50,302 nucleotides of DNA from a virus. The stretch spans positions 1 to 50,302 of the IMG/VR virus record IMGVR_UViG_3300017598_001205. One strand, written 5' to 3'. The position numbers and the translations under genes were made by a program. Of this stretch, positions 7,603-48,753 are shown piece after piece (the first letter of the stretch is position 1; every line of letters starts with the position of its first letter). Under the pieces are notes generated by a model, which saw only the letters and a list, made by a program, of their open reading frames with translations, made no database searches and was not told the DNA's origin.

Positions 7603-9315
7603 TTATTTTCTTTTAGTCAAAACAGCAGCTTTTAGATAATCCTTATCAGAACTGCCTGGCACAGCAGTTGCAAATCTGGCTCCTTCTTTGTGAGGTCTTA
7701 TCATACCCTGGGCAGCTAAAACCACATCTTCTTCAATTAATTCTCTATTCATTTCCCTAACGCCCCAAGCAGCTAATACCAAAGCTGAATACAAGTCTTT
7801 ATTTTGCCCTTTCTTAGGTGTGTCAAAATGACGTACTCCACGAGCAGTTTGTGTAACAATTATGTTTAATAGTTGTGATTTCAATACCCTAACTTCTTCG
7901 TACAGTTTTTCTGCGATCGGATCAGATGAAAGAGGTATTTTTGGAAATCTAAGATCTTTGTGTTCAAACATAGCTAGAGTGTCAAAGTTGGCATCGTTTA
8001 TCCAAGATGTACTTGGATTGATTAGTTGAAGAATACGTTTGCCTGGTTTGCCCAACGTAGTCTCGTCGTCCATATCTAAAATAGGTTCGTGATTATTATA
8101 ACCTTCTTGTAATAAATCTCTAATAGGTTTACCACCGCCTTGAGAATCCATAAATATGCGAACAACCTTGAATACATCAGTAAGTCTTTGAAATTCCATA
8201 ACCATTTCTTGAGTAGTCTTCTTCTTCAACTCGCTAACATACACTATTTTGTGAGGATCTCCTATTTCTATTACAATTACACCGCAAGACGCTTTGCCGC
8301 CCTGGTTTGGGTCTATACCTAAAACATATTCTTTTCCTTTTTCTCCCATAAGTTTTATACTAAATGTGCTGTCCATAGTACAAGCTTCAAGCATCGACGC
8401 CTTAAAAAATCCATCACTATCAGAAACCATAACAGCTTCATATTCCATGGTAAATTCAATACTTGACATAGTACGACGCGCTTCCTTAATATTCTCCACA
8501 TCCAGAAACGCTTTGGGCAGTAATTGGTAGGGCACTTGGTGTACAGCGTACTTAGTTTTTTCTCCCTCTTCTTTCATAGCTCTCCAATAAGATTTCATTC
8601 TACTCCACATATGATTAAATTTGAAATAACCAGATGAGGTCATTATCATCTTATTAGCTGTTTCATCTGCGAAATCATCTTCAGTAGCTAAACCCTGATC
8701 TATCAATTCTTGCTGGCGCTGGCGCTCACGTACACGCTGCATGGGCTCAAGTGATACAGCACCCATAGGCCGGACTACCAAATCAATAATATCTGGCGGC
8801 ATTTGAGCTAACTCATCTATTTGGATCAAATAAAAACGGGACCCACGAATTTTAGCACCGTCAACGCCTACTGGCAATGCTTCAATGAAGCTCCCGTTAG
8901 AATAATCTGTACCTTTAAATTTAAGAAAACAAGTATCCGATCCTCGTGTAGGCTTCTTTGCAGTGGCTTCTCTCAATATTGGGGCTCTCTGATAGATTTT
9001 CTCAACTTCCGAAAAAATCATCTTAGACTGACGAAAAGACGGTGCAATGAGACCTACCCTATACCCAGGGTATAAAAGTGCATGCAGCGCAGCGTTAACC
9101 CCCAATAAGAACGTTTTACCACCACCTCTACCCATAACAGTGATGTCAAAACTCTTAAACCACATATCACGTAAAATAACTCTTTGGATGGGGGCTAAAT
9201 CTACATTCAAAAGATCATACGCAGCCATTACAGGATCGCTTCTATAATACTTGATCATAGAAGAACCTTGCTCCATAATGAGCTCTAGATTGTCATAAAG
9301 GTCTATATTAGCCAA
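7603..9315 (-). CDS. Terminase large subunit (packaging ATPase/nuclease)
   Basis: The 570-residue protein has an N-terminal ATPase with Walker A MGRGGGKT (61-68), Walker B FYLIQIDE (161-168) and a coupling SS motif near 227. The C-terminal RNase H-fold nuclease has Asp at VLGIDP (335), RIFMD (390) and GQNKDLYSA (507). It pumps DNA into the prohead through the portal and cuts the concatemer. The start codon appears to be TTG at 9315, just after GAGGAG in the tail of the preceding gene. Length and motif order are normal for the family. Confidence 0.95.
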   Translation of the reverse strand: MANIDLYDNLELIMEQGSSMIKYYRSDPVMAAYDLLNVDLAPIQRVILRDMWFKSFDITVMGRGGGKTFLLGVNAALHALLYPGYRVGLIAPSFRQSKMIFSEVEKIYQRAPILREATAKKPTRGSDTCFLKFKGTDYSNGSFIEALPVGVDGAKIRGSRFYLIQIDELAQMPPDIIDLVVRPMGAVSLEPMQRVRERQRQQELIDQGLATEDDFADETANKMIMTSSGYFKFNHMWSRMKSYWRAMKEEGEKTKYAVHQVPYQLLPKAFLDVENIKEARRTMSSIEFTMEYEAVMVSDSDGFFKASMLEACTMDSTFSIKLMGEKGKEYVLGIDPNQGGKASCGVIVIEIGDPHKIVYVSELKKKTTQEMVMEFQRLTDVFKVVRIFMDSQGGGKPIRDLLQEGYNNHEPILDMDDETTLGKPGKRILQLINPSTSWINDANFDTLAMFEHKDLRFPKIPLSSDPIAEKLYEEVRVLKSQLLNIIVTQTARGVRHFDTPKKGQNKDLYSALVLAAWGVREMNRELIEEDVVLAAQGMIRPHKEGARFATAVPGSSDKDYLKAAVLTKRK

Positions 9316-15589: not shown

Positions 15590-16171
15590 TTAATTTCTCA
15601 TATCTAGAACTTCATCAATAATTCCATATTTTTTAGCTTCTTCTGCACTCATATAACAATCTCTATCTAAATCCTGTCTAATTCTTTTGACCGATTTTTT
15701 AGTAATTCTAGCCAGCTCCTCTATCATTTTCTCGTTCAAAAACTCGGCTTCTTGCACCCTTATTTTCATATCCTCTATATGACCACTAGCTCCGCCGGAA
15801 ACTTGGTGCAGCATGATTCTGGCATTCTTTAATGCACGCCTTTTTCCCTTAGCTCCAGACGCTAAAATACATGCAGCTGCGCTGGCAGCCTGACCAACAC
15901 AAATAGTGCTCACATCAGGTTTCACGTAATTCATAGTATCAAAAATAGCCATTTCAGCAGACACGTATCCACCTGGACTATTTATATACATTATAATGTC
16001 CTTATCTGGATTGTCTGCTTCTAAAAATAGTAATTGAGCCACTACTGAGTTAGCTAAATCCTCCGTAAAAGTTTTGCCTATAAATATTATCCTATCCTTT
16101 AAAAGCCTTGAATATAAATCATATACTTTTTCCTTATTTCCTACTCCTTCAATCACATAAGGCACACTCAT
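15590..16171 (-). CDS. clpP: ClpP-family serine protease
   Basis: The product has 193 residues from the ATG at 16171 (after tggagga). The catalytic triad is intact: S97 in VGQAASAAA, H122 in RIMLHQVSGG and D171 in LDRDCYMSAEEA. The handle and oligomerisation motifs YINSPGGYV and KKYGIIDEVL are present. ClpP forms a tetradecameric barrel that needs a Clp ATPase. No ClpX or ClpA is in the window, so it must use a host unfoldase or one encoded elsewhere, or act on small substrates. It could process virion proteins or remodel the host proteome. Confidence 0.93.
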   Translation of the reverse strand: MSVPYVIEGVGNKEKVYDLYSRLLKDRIIFIGKTFTEDLANSVVAQLLFLEADNPDKDIIMYINSPGGYVSAEMAIFDTMNYVKPDVSTICVGQAASAAACILASGAKGKRRALKNARIMLHQVSGGASGHIEDMKIRVQEAEFLNEKMIEELARITKKSVKRIRQDLDRDCYMSAEEAKKYGIIDEVLDMRN

Positions 16172-16207
16172 AAATAATTCCTCCATAATTCTAAAGATTT
16201 ACTATCT

Positions 16208-39072: not shown

Positions 39073-39609
39073 TTATATCTTTTTGGATATTTCTTCTATA
39101 GCTACGGTGTAAGCTCCAGTTAAATAAACTATATTCGCTTTAGCTATAGATAAATCCGAATCATTATCAATAAAAAACGGCTCCGAAATCACACATGGGG
39201 CTTGCGTATATCTAAGTAAATATCCCCCACGATCTTCCGCAGTTCGAGGTTTTGTACCTCTGTTGTTCGAACCCAAACAACTTAATAAATGTTTTTGTAA
39301 AACATCTGCCATTAGTTTACCACTTTTAGACTTATGATAATAAAGAACCTCTGTTCCAGAGGCTGATCTGTTAAAAGCATTACAATGTAAACTAATAATG
39401 AAATTTGGGTATAATGCATTAATTTCATTGGGAAGATTTTTATATGAAGTTCTATACACTCTAGTTATATCCACATCTTTAACTTCATTTTCAATGCGGA
39501 TAGATAAATCTTCATTAAAATCAAACTCTGTCAAATTAGAATTTTTGTTTGATGCTCCTGGGGAACTCTTTTTGTGACCTATCACCAGAGCACATAATTT
39601 TTTTGACAT
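39073..39609 (-). CDS. N-acetylmuramoyl-L-alanine amidase (endolysin)
   Basis: The 178-residue protein is a single Amidase_3 domain. Zinc ligands H12 (VIGHKKSSPG), E28 (LTEFDFN) and H75 (ISLHCNAFN) and catalytic E143 (VISEPFFIDN) are all present. It cleaves the amide between MurNAc and L-Ala in peptidoglycan. It has no signal peptide or wall-binding domain, so it needs a holin or other release route. It overlaps the upstream hydrolase gene at the start codon. Confidence 0.88.
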   Translation of the reverse strand: MSKKLCALVIGHKKSSPGASNKNSNLTEFDFNEDLSIRIENEVKDVDITRVYRTSYKNLPNEINALYPNFIISLHCNAFNRSASGTEVLYYHKSKSGKLMADVLQKHLLSCLGSNNRGTKPRTAEDRGGYLLRYTQAPCVISEPFFIDNDSDLSIAKANIVYLTGAYTVAIEEISKKI

Positions 39610-40136
39610 TATTTCCTCCTAATACTTCTATCTACTAAAACTTCCCATATTTCCGGATGAGCCAGTTGGTCATCCTCTATATCGTCGGGGTCACATGATT
39701 GCCATGGTACTCCGTTAAACTCATATCCACAGGACATCTTGTAAATCCAACCACCAAAACTTGAACATACTTGGTTATATTGATTGTTGTCAAAGCCAGA
39801 AAACTTATCAGTATGAAAAATGTGATCTAACATTTGTAAAATAATACGACCTATGCTATAAAATCTACCTAATAACTGAGGGGCTACTTTACGCATAGTT
39901 TCTTTTTGTTCTTCAGTTAAATCTCTTTTTCTTATAATTTTCCAATGTTTATATTTTTTGAATATTTTAGACAGCTCTACTTCTCGCATAGTCCAATGGG
40001 ATTCCCAAGCGATATAGTTGTCCTTGACTACTAAAACATGCCCCCAAAAACAAGGGTCTTTTTGAAACAAATTCATGAAATGCACAATTATGGACTTCCT
40101 AGATGTGAGAATTATATCTCCAGTTTGAAGGTCCAT
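39609..40136 (-). CDS. Permuted papain-like (YiiX/NlpC-P60-type) hydrolase
   Basis: The product has 175 residues from the ATG at 40136 (after aggggg). The layout fits circularly permuted papain-fold enzymes: DLQTGDIILTSRKSIIVHF, then His33 in FWGHVLVVKD and Cys124 in NQVCSSFGGWIY. Such enzymes cut peptide or amide bonds in cell wall or lipoproteins. Followed by the amidase, it forms a two-enzyme lysis cassette. Promoter copy C lies upstream. Confidence 0.78.
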   Translation of the reverse strand: MDLQTGDIILTSRKSIIVHFMNLFQKDPCFWGHVLVVKDNYIAWESHWTMREVELSKIFKKYKHWKIIRKRDLTEEQKETMRKVAPQLLGRFYSIGRIILQMLDHIFHTDKFSGFDNNQYNQVCSSFGGWIYKMSCGYEFNGVPWQSCDPDDIEDDQLAHPEIWEVLVDRSIRRK

Positions 40137-40242
40137 TAGCACCCCCTGATTTGTATTGTGCCCTTAATTGTACCTCTCCCTTATTATATACCTACACGGC
40201 GTCAGTGTGGAGCTTGACAATTATGGGCGTTTGCATTCATAG

Positions 40243-45617: not shown

Positions 45618-45651
45618 AAAAAAATTGGGGAGCAGCTGCACACTACTCCCC
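45618..45651 (-). terminator. Rho-independent terminator of the metacaspase cassette
   Basis: On the minus strand a 9-bp stem GGGGAGTAG/CTGCTCCCC (one U-G pair) with a 7-nt loop is followed by AA and seven T residues. It lies 35 nt after the metacaspase stop and one base before promoter D, so the two units are insulated from each other. Confidence 0.9.
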
Positions 45652-45686: not shown

Positions 45687-46625
45687 TTATTTTCTGCCAA
45701 ACACTTTTCTATCAATTAAATCCTTATTTCCACTAATTTGAGGTACTTGGCTATAACTATTCAATAACTCTACTGATTTTTTACTAAGTTCTATCCAAGT
45801 AATGTCTGGATTTTCCCTTATAGCTGTAGCTAACGACCATGTAAATGCTCCTTGATGTTTTCCATCAATGTAAGCATCGGCAGAAGTTTGATTATCTCTA
45901 CAACCAGACATTAGTACGTGATTTTGATTTCCACTGTTTTTCTTGCCCATTTTATTTTTGGGTAATATTACCCCTTTAGATCTAGACTTTATATCAAAGG
46001 GAGGTACAATATTTCTTACCTGTTTCATAGGGTTAATATTCTTGCTCATAGTTCCGCTATGACATGCATCGCAAATCATGGTTAAGTAAACCCCGGCAGG
46101 AAGCTGTTTGAATAAATTTGCCAGAATATCATCTGTTAAAGGATTATCCCAATCCAAATCATGCGGACATAGGATTTCGTCTAACTGGTCTTCCAACTCA
46201 TCGCCATTCCTGTCTCTAACCTGGCTACCGTGGCCTGAATAATGGAATATCAATTCATCACCAGCTTTGGCGCCATCAAGCAACCATTTTAACCTGTCTA
46301 AAATTCCTTGTCTGGTAGCTCTCTCGTCTATAATTGTACGAATATTCTCTGGCTTAAAACCATATTTGTTAGTCAATATGCTGTGCATGGTTTCTACATC
46401 ATTTACACAACCATGCAAGTCAGCTCCAAGTTCTGGTTTATATTTATTAATTCCAACGAGTAGTGCCTTTTTAATCGGTCTTCTTGCCGAATTATCAGGC
46501 TTTATCTTCACTTCGTTGTCTTCCTCGTCATCTTTTTTCTTTTTAATATTTTTAAAAAACATAATAGATGCAAATATAAACAAAGCTATGATTACTGCAA
46601 ATATTATCACTGTAGAACTTGGCAT
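45687..46625 (-). CDS. Membrane-anchored metacaspase-like cysteine protease
   Basis: The 312-residue protein has an N-terminal transmembrane helix (VIIFAVIIALFIFASIMFF, 6-24), a basic and acidic linker, and a peptidase C14 (caspase-fold) domain from about 50. His132 in HYSGHGSQ and Cys188 in CDACHSGT form the catalytic dyad, and ALLVGINKY, LHGCVNDVETM and HVLMSGCRDNQTSAD are typical of type I metacaspases. These cut after Arg or Lys. It may act in host killing, anti-defence or virion processing. The cassette includes the exported protein upstream and ends in a terminator. Confidence 0.92.
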   Translation of the reverse strand: MPSSTVIIFAVIIALFIFASIMFFKNIKKKKDDEEDNEVKIKPDNSARRPIKKALLVGINKYKPELGADLHGCVNDVETMHSILTNKYGFKPENIRTIIDERATRQGILDRLKWLLDGAKAGDELIFHYSGHGSQVRDRNGDELEDQLDEILCPHDLDWDNPLTDDILANLFKQLPAGVYLTMICDACHSGTMSKNINPMKQVRNIVPPFDIKSRSKGVILPKNKMGKKNSGNQNHVLMSGCRDNQTSADAYIDGKHQGAFTWSLATAIRENPDITWIELSKKSVELLNSYSQVPQISGNKDLIDRKVFGRK

Positions 46626-46638
46626 AAGTTTTCCTCCT

Positions 46639-47175
46639 TTAATTTGCTTTGGCTTTGTCTGTATTCTCCAACATATAATTTAATTCTTCATCATATATTT
46701 TCTGTGCTTCTTCCTCGGACATTTTGAACCAATCCATATTTAAATATCCCGGCGGATAAGAAGGAATCAAAAAATAATCTTTATCTAATAATATCATGTA
46801 ATCTTTCCGCCATGCATCGACCTTCCCGTCCTTGTTGTAATCTGCTAATATTACTACTATAAATCCTTGAGCATCATGTATTGTATAGTAATCCTGATAA
46901 TCTCTTACCACAATAGTAAACATCTCAAAACCTGCTGGGTGTCTTTCTATAATAGCATAATGCTTTTTAAAAGTAGTCTCGAAACTATCATGGAGACCAG
47001 TGTTTTCGTAAACATGCATTACTCTAGTATTTCCTGACACAGACCAAAGGTTGATTTCTCCAGATTTCATTATATCTACTAATTCATCAACTTTACTTTT
47101 ATCTGCTGCGATACCACTAAAATTAATGCCAAATGCAAATATTAATGCTAATCCTAACATCAATAACTTTTTCAT
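46639..47175 (-). CDS. Exported protein with EF-hand-like loop
   Basis: The 178-residue protein has a signal peptide (MKKLLMLGLALIFAFGINFS, then GIAA-D). The mature region contains DYNKDGKVDAWRKD (112-125), an EF-hand/dockerin-like calcium loop, and an aromatic C-terminal part (SYPPGYLNMDWFKMSEEEAQ). It is 13 nt upstream of the metacaspase start, so they are co-transcribed. Metacaspases are often calcium-dependent, so it may supply or sense calcium, or be a substrate or inhibitor; this is inference. Confidence 0.75.
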   Translation of the reverse strand: MKKLLMLGLALIFAFGINFSGIAADKSKVDELVDIMKSGEINLWSVSGNTRVMHVYENTGLHDSFETTFKKHYAIIERHPAGFEMFTIVVRDYQDYYTIHDAQGFIVVILADYNKDGKVDAWRKDYMILLDKDYFLIPSYPPGYLNMDWFKMSEEEAQKIYDEELNYMLENTDKAKAN

Positions 47176-47198: not shown

Positions 47199-47702
47199 TT
47201 AGTATACACCCAAGTCCTTGAGAATATCGTATACACCAGACTTAATAGCCTTAATTCTGGTGAACTCAGCAATTGTAGGGCATACTGGCTGCTTTTTCAA
47301 ATACATAAATGTCTCTGAAGGAAGCTTATTACTCTTCTTGTTGTTGCAATCTTTACAAGCGGTTACACAATTTTCGAACGTACTTTTACCACCACGAGAT
47401 ACCGGTATAACGTGGTCTATTGTTAACTCTTTCAACTTTCCACAATACTGGCAAACAAACCCGTCTCTTATCATCACATTTTTCTTACTAAATGGGACTT
47501 TAGTCCTATAAATAGTACGGATTATTTTTATCAGCTTCATAACGGCTGGTATCTTTACTATTACTTTTTCCGCAGTATTTACAACCATTTCAGTATACTT
47601 AAGCACTGTAACTTTTCCTTTGACCATCAATTTAATAGCCTTTTGCCAACTAACGGTATTCAAATAACTATAATCTCCATTTAGTATTACACAATTCTGC
47701 AT
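47199..47702 (-). CDS. HNH endonuclease
   Basis: The 167-residue protein has a C-terminal HNH domain: zinc-binding CQYCG (84-88) and CKDCN (116-120), with DHVIPVSRGGKSTFENC (D96-H97, N111) as the catalytic core. The N-terminal 75 residues are basic (ILNGDYSYLNTVSWQKAIKL), as in HNH proteins of the McrA/RRxRR type in phages. It could be a homing nuclease or a packaging/host-DNA nuclease. Confidence 0.88.
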   Translation of the reverse strand: MQNCVILNGDYSYLNTVSWQKAIKLMVKGKVTVLKYTEMVVNTAEKVIVKIPAVMKLIKIIRTIYRTKVPFSKKNVMIRDGFVCQYCGKLKELTIDHVIPVSRGGKSTFENCVTACKDCNNKKSNKLPSETFMYLKKQPVCPTIAEFTRIKAIKSGVYDILKDLGVY

Positions 47703-47703
47703 C

Positions 47704-47925
47704 TTAACTTCCTCCTTTCTTTCCCTCTTCTATCTGGGATGACATTCTTTTATACATAAACTCTGAAATTGCTACTTTACTTATAAGCCTTAAAGCTAAC
47801 AAACTAAAAGCAATTACAAACATTTCCTTACCCATGAAAAATCCGCCGAGAAAAAGAATAATCTCAGCACTTGATCCTATTATCTGGACCATGTTTTGAT
47901 AATGCCTACTTGATTTTAGTTTCAT
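47704..47925 (-). CDS. Small membrane protein
   Basis: The 73-residue protein has one or two hydrophobic segments (IIGSSAEIILFLGGFFMG and MFVIAFSLLALRLISKV) and charged ends, so it is a two-helix hairpin of holin-like size. It is in the metacaspase-side operon rather than next to the amidase. It overlaps the methyltransferase-like gene end by 4 nt. Holin function is possible, not shown. Confidence 0.65.
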   Translation of the reverse strand: MKLKSSRHYQNMVQIIGSSAEIILFLGGFFMGKEMFVIAFSLLALRLISKVAISEFMYKRMSSQIEEGKKGGS

Positions 47926-48473
47926 AACACAACCCTTCCAAAAAGCGCAAAAAACTCATGCGCATGCTCTTCTGGGGTATACGGATCAAACCACCCTAAT
48001 ATAATTCCATCTTTTGCCAATATTTTCCTGGCTGCTTTTACATAAGTATCTAACAACTCTAATGTTTCTTCATCTATTATGGAATAGTAATCAAGAAATA
48101 TAAAATCATATTTTTCTTCTGTTTGTAAAATAAAATCTAATCCGTTCCCGTTTATTCCTTTATGTCTTGCGTCATCTATATAATTTGACATCTGATGGAC
48201 AGCGATGACGTCCGGATTTATTTCAACTGTAGTAAGTTTTGTTACCTCTGGAAAAGAAAGAATATACCTTGAGGCAATTCCTAAACCTAATCCTATCTCT
48301 AAACAATTTCCTCGGGGTAAATCACCTATTTGCTGAGACAGTTCTTCTATTTCACTTTCGACCATCCATAGATTATGCCCTGGGCCTATTTCAAGGTGTA
48401 GCAACCCATCATATAAATATACACGTACATCACCAGACTCAGCTATTAAATCTCCATTTATAAAATAAATCAT
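47922..48473 (-). CDS. SAM-dependent methyltransferase/spermidine-synthase-like protein
   Basis: The product has 183 residues from the ATG at 48473. Class I Rossmann motifs include NCLEIGLGLGIASRYIL (57-73; SAM-binding loop), TTVEINPDVI (81-90, acidic ligand E84) and YDFIFLDYYSI. The layout is closest to spermidine-synthase-like or small-molecule methyltransferases, since no DNA-methyltransferase PP motif is present. Role in the phage is unknown. Confidence 0.72.
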   Translation of the reverse strand: MIYFINGDLIAESGDVRVYLYDGLLHLEIGPGHNLWMVESEIEELSQQIGDLPRGNCLEIGLGLGIASRYILSFPEVTKLTTVEINPDVIAVHQMSNYIDDARHKGINGNGLDFILQTEEKYDFIFLDYYSIIDEETLELLDTYVKAARKILAKDGIILGWFDPYTPEEHAHEFFALFGRVVL

Positions 48474-48477
48474 CGGT

Positions 48478-48753
48478 TTACACCCCATCAATAGATATAA
48501 CTAGTTCAATTGAAGTAGCCTGTGCTTGCATTACGTTTGCCCAAGCTTCTACTAATTCCTTTGTTTCTCCAGAAACTTCCACTGTACTGATCACTTTATT
48601 TTCTAAGGTATTATTAATCCACACACTGTGTAAGTTAATTGTACCAGATACTACACCTGTTAAAGTAGTAGTTTCATCTAGAGTATGTAGAAAGTTTAAA
48701 GGTTTTATTGAACCGTCTTTTATAATTTCTATGTTTATAGTTGATTCATACAT
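48478..48753 (-). CDS. Hypothetical protein
   Basis: The 91-residue protein is beta-rich (TLTGVVSGTINLHSVWINNT) with a helix near the end. Its stop overlaps the ribosome-binding site of the methyltransferase-like gene. No family is recognised. Confidence 0.58.
   Translation of the reverse strand: MYESTINIEIIKDGSIKPLNFLHTLDETTTLTGVVSGTINLHSVWINNTLENKVISTVEVSGETKELVEAWANVMQAQATSIELVISIDGV

Follow-up and report, generated by a model that had tools for sequence, protein, structure and literature searches.

The DNA analysed here, a 50,302-nucleotide stretch of the IMG/VR virus record IMGVR_UViG_3300017598_001205 (hereafter the window), carries the gene for a membrane-anchored metacaspase, together with an ORF for a predicted exported protein, an HNH endonuclease gene and a Rho-independent terminator (Table 1). 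The exported-protein ORF lies 13 nt upstream of the metacaspase gene on the same, minus strand, and the HNH gene is found a further 23 nt upstream. Terminase, head maturation protease, tail fibre matches, endolysin and metacaspase are all encoded on one strand, and the window represents a genuine tailed phage, whose terminase is ~30% similar to those of Bacillus and Microcystis phages. The closest relative found, locus L003, shares a long run of syntenic genes with the window. Its metacaspase is 61% and its HNH endonuclease 85% identical to the respective window protein, and the order of genes is HNH endonuclease, a gap of 25 nt, metacaspase and terminator. A spermidine synthase-like methyltransferase-fold protein encoded at window positions 47922-48491 (PF01564, E=4e-8) is 75% identical in L003.

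Table 1. Features of the window that are relevant to the metacaspase locus, in order of position.
Feature	Position	Strand	Evidence
Terminase large subunit, marks tailed phage	7603..9315	(-)	phrog_2 E=1e-23
ClpP-type head maturation protease	15590..16186	(-)	phrog_94 E=1e-39
Endolysin (Amidase_3), ~6 kb downstream of metacaspase	39073..39609	(-)	PF01520 E=7e-25; phrog_435 E=1e-38
C92 YiiX-like permuted papain-fold protein, overlaps endolysin start	39609..40142	(-)	PF05708 E=5e-5, under gathering cut-off
Rho-independent terminator after metacaspase	45627..45651	(-)	10-bp stem, T tract, -19.2 kcal/mol, z -4.9
Metacaspase gene, type I-like, Peptidase_C14, 312 aa	45687..46625	(-)	Pfam, PDB, AlphaFold and Foldseek
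Lys195 at TbMCA2 Asp220 position (fourth allosteric Ca ligand)	46041..46043	(-)	TbMCA2 alignment; ligand list PMC4357240
Catalytic Cys188 (DACHSG)	46062..46064	(-)	TbMCA2 alignment; invariant 70/70 viral, 80/80 bacterial
Catalytic His132 (SGHG)	46230..46232	(-)	TbMCA2 alignment; invariant 70/70 viral, 80/80 bacterial
N-terminal transmembrane anchor, residues 4-26	46548..46616	(-)	Kyte-Doolittle 3.14; model helix 4-34; likewise in L003
178-aa ORF (proposed partner), predicted exported, not conserved	46639..47175	(-)	signal peptide read from sequence
DxNxDGxVD loop of partner, residues 112-123, incomplete EF-hand-like	46807..46842	(-)	sequence
HNH endonuclease, conserved upstream neighbour of metacaspase	47199..47702	(-)	PF01844 E=1e-16

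A sequence-only reading of this region had proposed that the metacaspase has an intact His/Cys dyad and an N-terminal membrane anchor, is a rarity among phages and is followed by a strong terminator. All of these points were borne out. Peptidase_C14 (PF00656) matches residues 52-299 with E=2.2e-33 (116 bits, cut-off 21.4), and solved type I metacaspases in the PDB match the protein as well, the best being metacaspase-1 with E=1e-37. An AlphaFold model based on an alignment of 71 sequences (pLDDT 86.5, pTM 0.83) has the caspase-haemoglobinase fold and begins with a helix spanning residues 4-34; the top 29 hits in a Foldseek comparison with the PDB are all metacaspases or the bacterial protein GSU0716. 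His132 and Cys188 align with the catalytic pair of the solved metacaspases, and loss of the dyad was seen in none of the 70 viral and 80 nearest bacterial sequences. Likewise, the terminator hairpin is matched in stability by 0 of 200 shuffled sequences and has a homologous counterpart in L003 (-20.8 kcal/mol). As for rarity, a screen of 50,697 annotated phage records turned up a close homologue of the metacaspase in only one.

Residues were assigned by alignment of the window metacaspase with Trypanosoma brucei MCA2 (TbMCA2; chain numbering equals native numbering +20). All four S1 residues of TbMCA2 are kept (C92, D95, S156 and D211, corresponding to C73, D76, S130 and D186 in the window protein), and basic P1 specificity, i.e. 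cleavage after Arg or Lys, would therefore be the natural expectation. Metacaspases are often activated by calcium, which in TbMCA2 is bound by D173, D189, D190 and D220 (PMC4357240). Calcium regulation had also been envisaged for the window enzyme, but is uncertain: three canonical ligands are present (D149, D165 and D166), but the position of Asp220 is taken by Lys195, leaving the four-Asp site incomplete. The Asp220-equivalent residue is Arg or Lys in 49 of the 70 viral sequences and Arg in 78 of the 80 bacterial ones. Because of Lys195, we term the enzyme type I-like rather than a member with a canonical calcium site, and calcium control is not to be assumed.

The N-terminal hydrophobic segment is preceded by no charged side chain and followed by the sequence KNIKKKK; in L003 the arrangement of charges is the same, with KNRK after the segment. 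Applying the positive-inside rule to these flanking charges, on which the assignment entirely depends, the window metacaspase is predicted to adopt an N-out/C-in topology with its protease domain in the cytosol. That is, the mature exported protein encoded next to it would sit on the other side of the membrane.

This neighbouring ORF had been put forward as a functional partner of the metacaspase, that is, as an exported, EF-hand-like protein forming one terminated cassette with it. Indeed, the ORF opens with a Sec signal peptide of classic type (MKKLLMLGLALIFAFGINFSGIAA), and its spacing to the metacaspase gene is as had been read. The loop DYNKDGKVDAWR fits the EF-hand pattern at positions 1, 3, 5, 6, 8 and 9, but position 12 is Arg instead of Glu or Asp and Pfam reports no EF-hand family in the protein. 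'EF-hand-like' is thus a generous label: the acid at position 12 is missing, and the single-sequence structural model (pLDDT 39.5) is too poor to reveal helices flanking the loop. No significant protein family was found for the ORF; a colicin-M-like match was rejected (Pfam E 0.056, 13 bits versus a cut-off of 27).

The proposed pairing itself did not stand up. Relatives of the 178-aa protein were detected neither in any ORF of 172 related loci (phmmer at maximum sensitivity) nor in the records, searched in full, of 16 phages that carry a related metacaspase, in 36 bacterial genomes or in the phage and plasmid record collections, with the proviso that absence from fragmentary records is no proof of absence. 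IMG/VR yielded no relatives either, in an insensitive search by single protein and by close-relative patterns, which is weak because no alignment of the protein exists; for the metacaspase itself, only the alignment-based IMG/VR search was sensitive enough, and the single-protein search gave nothing. In L003, no gene intervenes between HNH endonuclease and metacaspase, and in L023, another relative whose downstream gene order is conserved, the upstream gene differs from that of the window. Judging from these gene orders, the ORF appears to be an insertion in the window phage or to have been lost from the others. For the same reasons, we regard HNH endonuclease, metacaspase and terminator as the conserved unit: the terminator that closes the proposed cassette is real, but its boundary was drawn incompletely, omitting the HNH gene.

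To place the window enzyme among its relatives, we considered phage METACASPASES as a group. The alignment-based IMG/VR scan returned 72 loci (~70 non-redundant with the earlier set); the related viral records are all metagenomic, and the largest contigs with a metacaspase measure 485, 395, 385, 327 and 273 kb. Pairs of related metacaspases have dN/dS ratios of 0.09-0.17 (Nei-Gojobori; dS approaches saturation where the sequences are further apart), and the phage enzymes are under purifying selection. In a quick maximum-likelihood tree, which is unrooted and contains long branches, the viral sequences fall into several groups intermixed with bacterial ones, and the group of the window protein comprises 13 further viral sequences and a single one from Desulfobacterales (98 SH-aLRT). 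The labels viral and bacterial change 10 times across the tree, at least 5 of these changes being forced by starred branches, and multiple transfers of metacaspase genes between bacteria and phages are likely on this topology. Phage metacaspases thus form a scattered and apparently undescribed group whose scope includes many large genomes. A search of the open-access literature, with subscription papers and preprints outside its range, retrieved no paper on phage metacaspases. The window enzyme is not categorically new, since its family is already known; for a phage-borne, membrane-tethered and catalytically intact form, no description was found in the open literature searched.

Two members of the group are interrupted by different inteins, one at each catalytic motif. 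In L018 (6686-8830), an intein (PF14890, E=7e-21, with HNH_3) follows directly after the GHG motif, with the junctions ...YSGHG|C...HN|SQVRD..., and in L089 (7995-9989) another one (PF14890, E=8e-21) lies just before the catalytic cysteine, with the junctions ...ILDS|C...HN|CFSG..., so that the catalytic Cys is the +1 extein residue. Both proteases should be inactive before splicing. By sequence, a 697-aa terminase-like ORF in L083 (3466-5559) also appears to hold an intein.

Membrane tethers, called as a hydrophobic 19-mer outside the core, were compared between the viral proteins and their 80 nearest bacterial homologues. Besides the window protein and L003, which are tethered at the N-terminus, 17 other phage proteins have a tether at the extreme C-terminus. 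In all 17, the six residues preceding the hydrophobic segment include a Lys, and no more than two residues follow it; the bacterial homologues have no tether (0/80). As the N- and C-terminal forms occupy different groups of the tree, tethering probably arose at least twice, while the 19 tethered sequences do not amount to 19 independent events. Transmembrane helices as such have precedent: PMC3501461 reports them for 15% of the metacaspases of prokaryotes, among them a form from cyanobacteria with a C-terminal helix, whose protease is cytosolic. Members of the window clade that have no transmembrane helix (L023-L031 and L018) often begin with short Cys-containing, possibly amphipathic segments such as MCKLCDFF, MGCKCLEKIQSLF and KKGCLFGWLF, which perhaps serve as peripheral membrane anchors.

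In several relatives, the metacaspase gene abuts or overlaps an endolysin gene, as for GH24 (L026), Amidase_2 (L028), the phrog_465 endolysin (L030), M15_4 (L083, L089) and Amidase_3 (L072). The adjoining endolysins therefore belong to several families. An endolysin could be located on 15 contigs; on 6 of these it lies no more than 2 kb from the metacaspase, where 1.2 would be expected (p=0.0003), and with one contig per lineage the count is 3 versus 0.58 expected (p=0.013). These p values are indicative only, because both the lineages and the 2 kb limit were picked with the data already in view. In five large-genome contigs, however, the distance between the two genes is 47-170 kb, and when the two nearest genes on either side were scanned without bias, HNH, RecA/UvsX, gp32, ClpS, Hsp20 and AAA proteins turned up as well as endolysins. 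The scan and the distance test weaken a general rule that phage metacaspases sit in lysis cassettes: adjacency applies to a minority of lineages, with six related contigs displaying it and the window's own endolysin lying 6 kb off.

About 6 kb downstream, beside the C92-like gene, the corresponding slot is filled by one endolysin in the window and by a different one in L003 (C92-like gene and unrelated endolysin together at window 39073-40142, Amidase_3, and at L003 16633-17564, phrog_465 type), and one lysis enzyme appears to have been swapped for another in this position. A sub-clade of tail-anchored enzymes (L056, L058-L061, L070, L073, L075, L080 and L085) is flanked upstream by a YkuD-like gene, a weak match below cut-off, and downstream by Hsp20 and ClpS genes, and several members also have a ClpX gene close by, at a distance of a few genes; this context suggests proteostasis or host takeover instead. 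Downstream of small bacterial metacaspases, the gene for one large protein was found repeatedly (16 loci, mostly Nitrospira), but these belong to a clade distant from that of the window.

Taken together, we favour a model in which the window enzyme is a cytosol-facing, membrane-tethered, late phage protease with a role in lysis or in handling the envelope, a tentative reading to which we assign a probability of roughly 0.4. The N-terminal helix would tether the metacaspase to the inner face of the host cytoplasmic membrane, where it would cleave after Arg or Lys late in infection. Its most likely substrates would be membrane or membrane-proximal proteins of lysis control or envelope dismantling, of either host or phage origin, and it would work without the neighbouring exported protein.

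The strongest competitor, which we consider a serious possibility, is a protease for host takeover or counter-defence that is tethered at the membrane, attacks regulators of the host or the membrane-acting effectors of abortive infection, and has no particular connection with lysis. The patchy distribution in phages, with several lineages intermixed with bacterial homologues, is as expected of host-directed peptidases, an argument made in PMC7824862, and both the ClpS, ClpX and Hsp20 genes next to one sub-clade and the very large genomes of many carriers point in the same direction. However, no known anti-defence gene was recognised beside the window metacaspase, and the endolysin adjacency in several lineages speaks for lysis. 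Weighing this endolysin context against the mixed neighbour scan, we favour the late lysis or envelope protease. A role in virion morphogenesis, or as a packaged or ejected virion protein, is improbable: the gene lies on the strand of the structural genes, and in L028, L029 and L030 it is a few kb from the terminase gene, but the window phage already encodes a ClpP-type head maturation protease, and a membrane anchor is ill-suited to capsid maturation.

Very improbable is a passenger gene or an artefact of host contamination or misassembly with no function in the phage. The scarcity among annotated phage records and the purely metagenomic origin of the relatives would fit this explanation, but 27 of the 51 records tested (the window and 26 of 50 related records) encode a terminase belonging to a single PHROG family, many phage genes are syntenic with L003, the coding sequences are constrained, the dyad is always kept and no frameshifted or dyad-dead copies were seen. 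Least credible of all is a two-gene unit for host killing in which an exported calcium-binding partner controls the metacaspase or is itself cleaved by it: the close spacing on one strand before a terminator and the frequent calcium activation of metacaspases are outweighed by the partner's absence from syntenic L003 and from all loci and records searched, by the predicted location of the two proteins on opposite sides of the membrane, by the missing acid at position 12 of the loop and by the one canonical calcium ligand that the protease lacks.

The lysis or envelope role proposed for the window enzyme may extend to the group. Phage metacaspases would then be widespread, unrecognised proteases of the lysis programme, whose genes have repeatedly moved between bacteria and phages, which have gained unrelated inner-membrane anchors on several occasions, and which set the timing of lysis or carry it out from within the cytosol. 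We regard this generalization as doubtful; if true, it would make these enzymes the viral equivalent of cell death driven by caspases.

With type I metacaspases such as yeast Yca1/Mca1 and T. brucei MCA2 (MEROPS C14B), the window enzyme has in common the caspase fold, the His/Cys dyad, the GCxND and SGHG motifs, the full set of TbMCA2 S1 residues and three of four calcium ligands, whereas it differs by its short single domain, its transmembrane anchor, the replacement of Asp220 by Lys195 and its location in a phage. The small single-domain architecture and the dyad are shared with prokaryotic metacaspases (orthocaspases), the best bacterial match being L094 from a Desulfobacterales MAG (48% identity); the nearest bacterial homologues likewise have no Asp at the Asp220 position, but are untethered. 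Giant viruses (Fadolivirus, Clandestinovirus, Medusavirus and Yasminevirus) encode metacaspases or caspases of the same fold, which are the best structural matches in BFVD, but these carriers infect eukaryotes. To our knowledge, caspase-type proteases have been discussed almost exclusively as host enzymes of death or defence. Bacterial gasdermin proteases and the TPR-CHAT protease of Craspase are clan CD proteases that take part in deciding the fate of the infected cell; among the genes examined here, neither a gasdermin nor a CRISPR partner was seen. The endolysin-adjacent and the two intein-interrupted members add to the interest of the group, and its tethered, intact and conserved enzymes allow a direct test of whether caspase chemistry serves phage exit or the disarming of the host. 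While the antiphage caspase-like proteases are parts of host defence, the window enzyme is carried by the phage itself.
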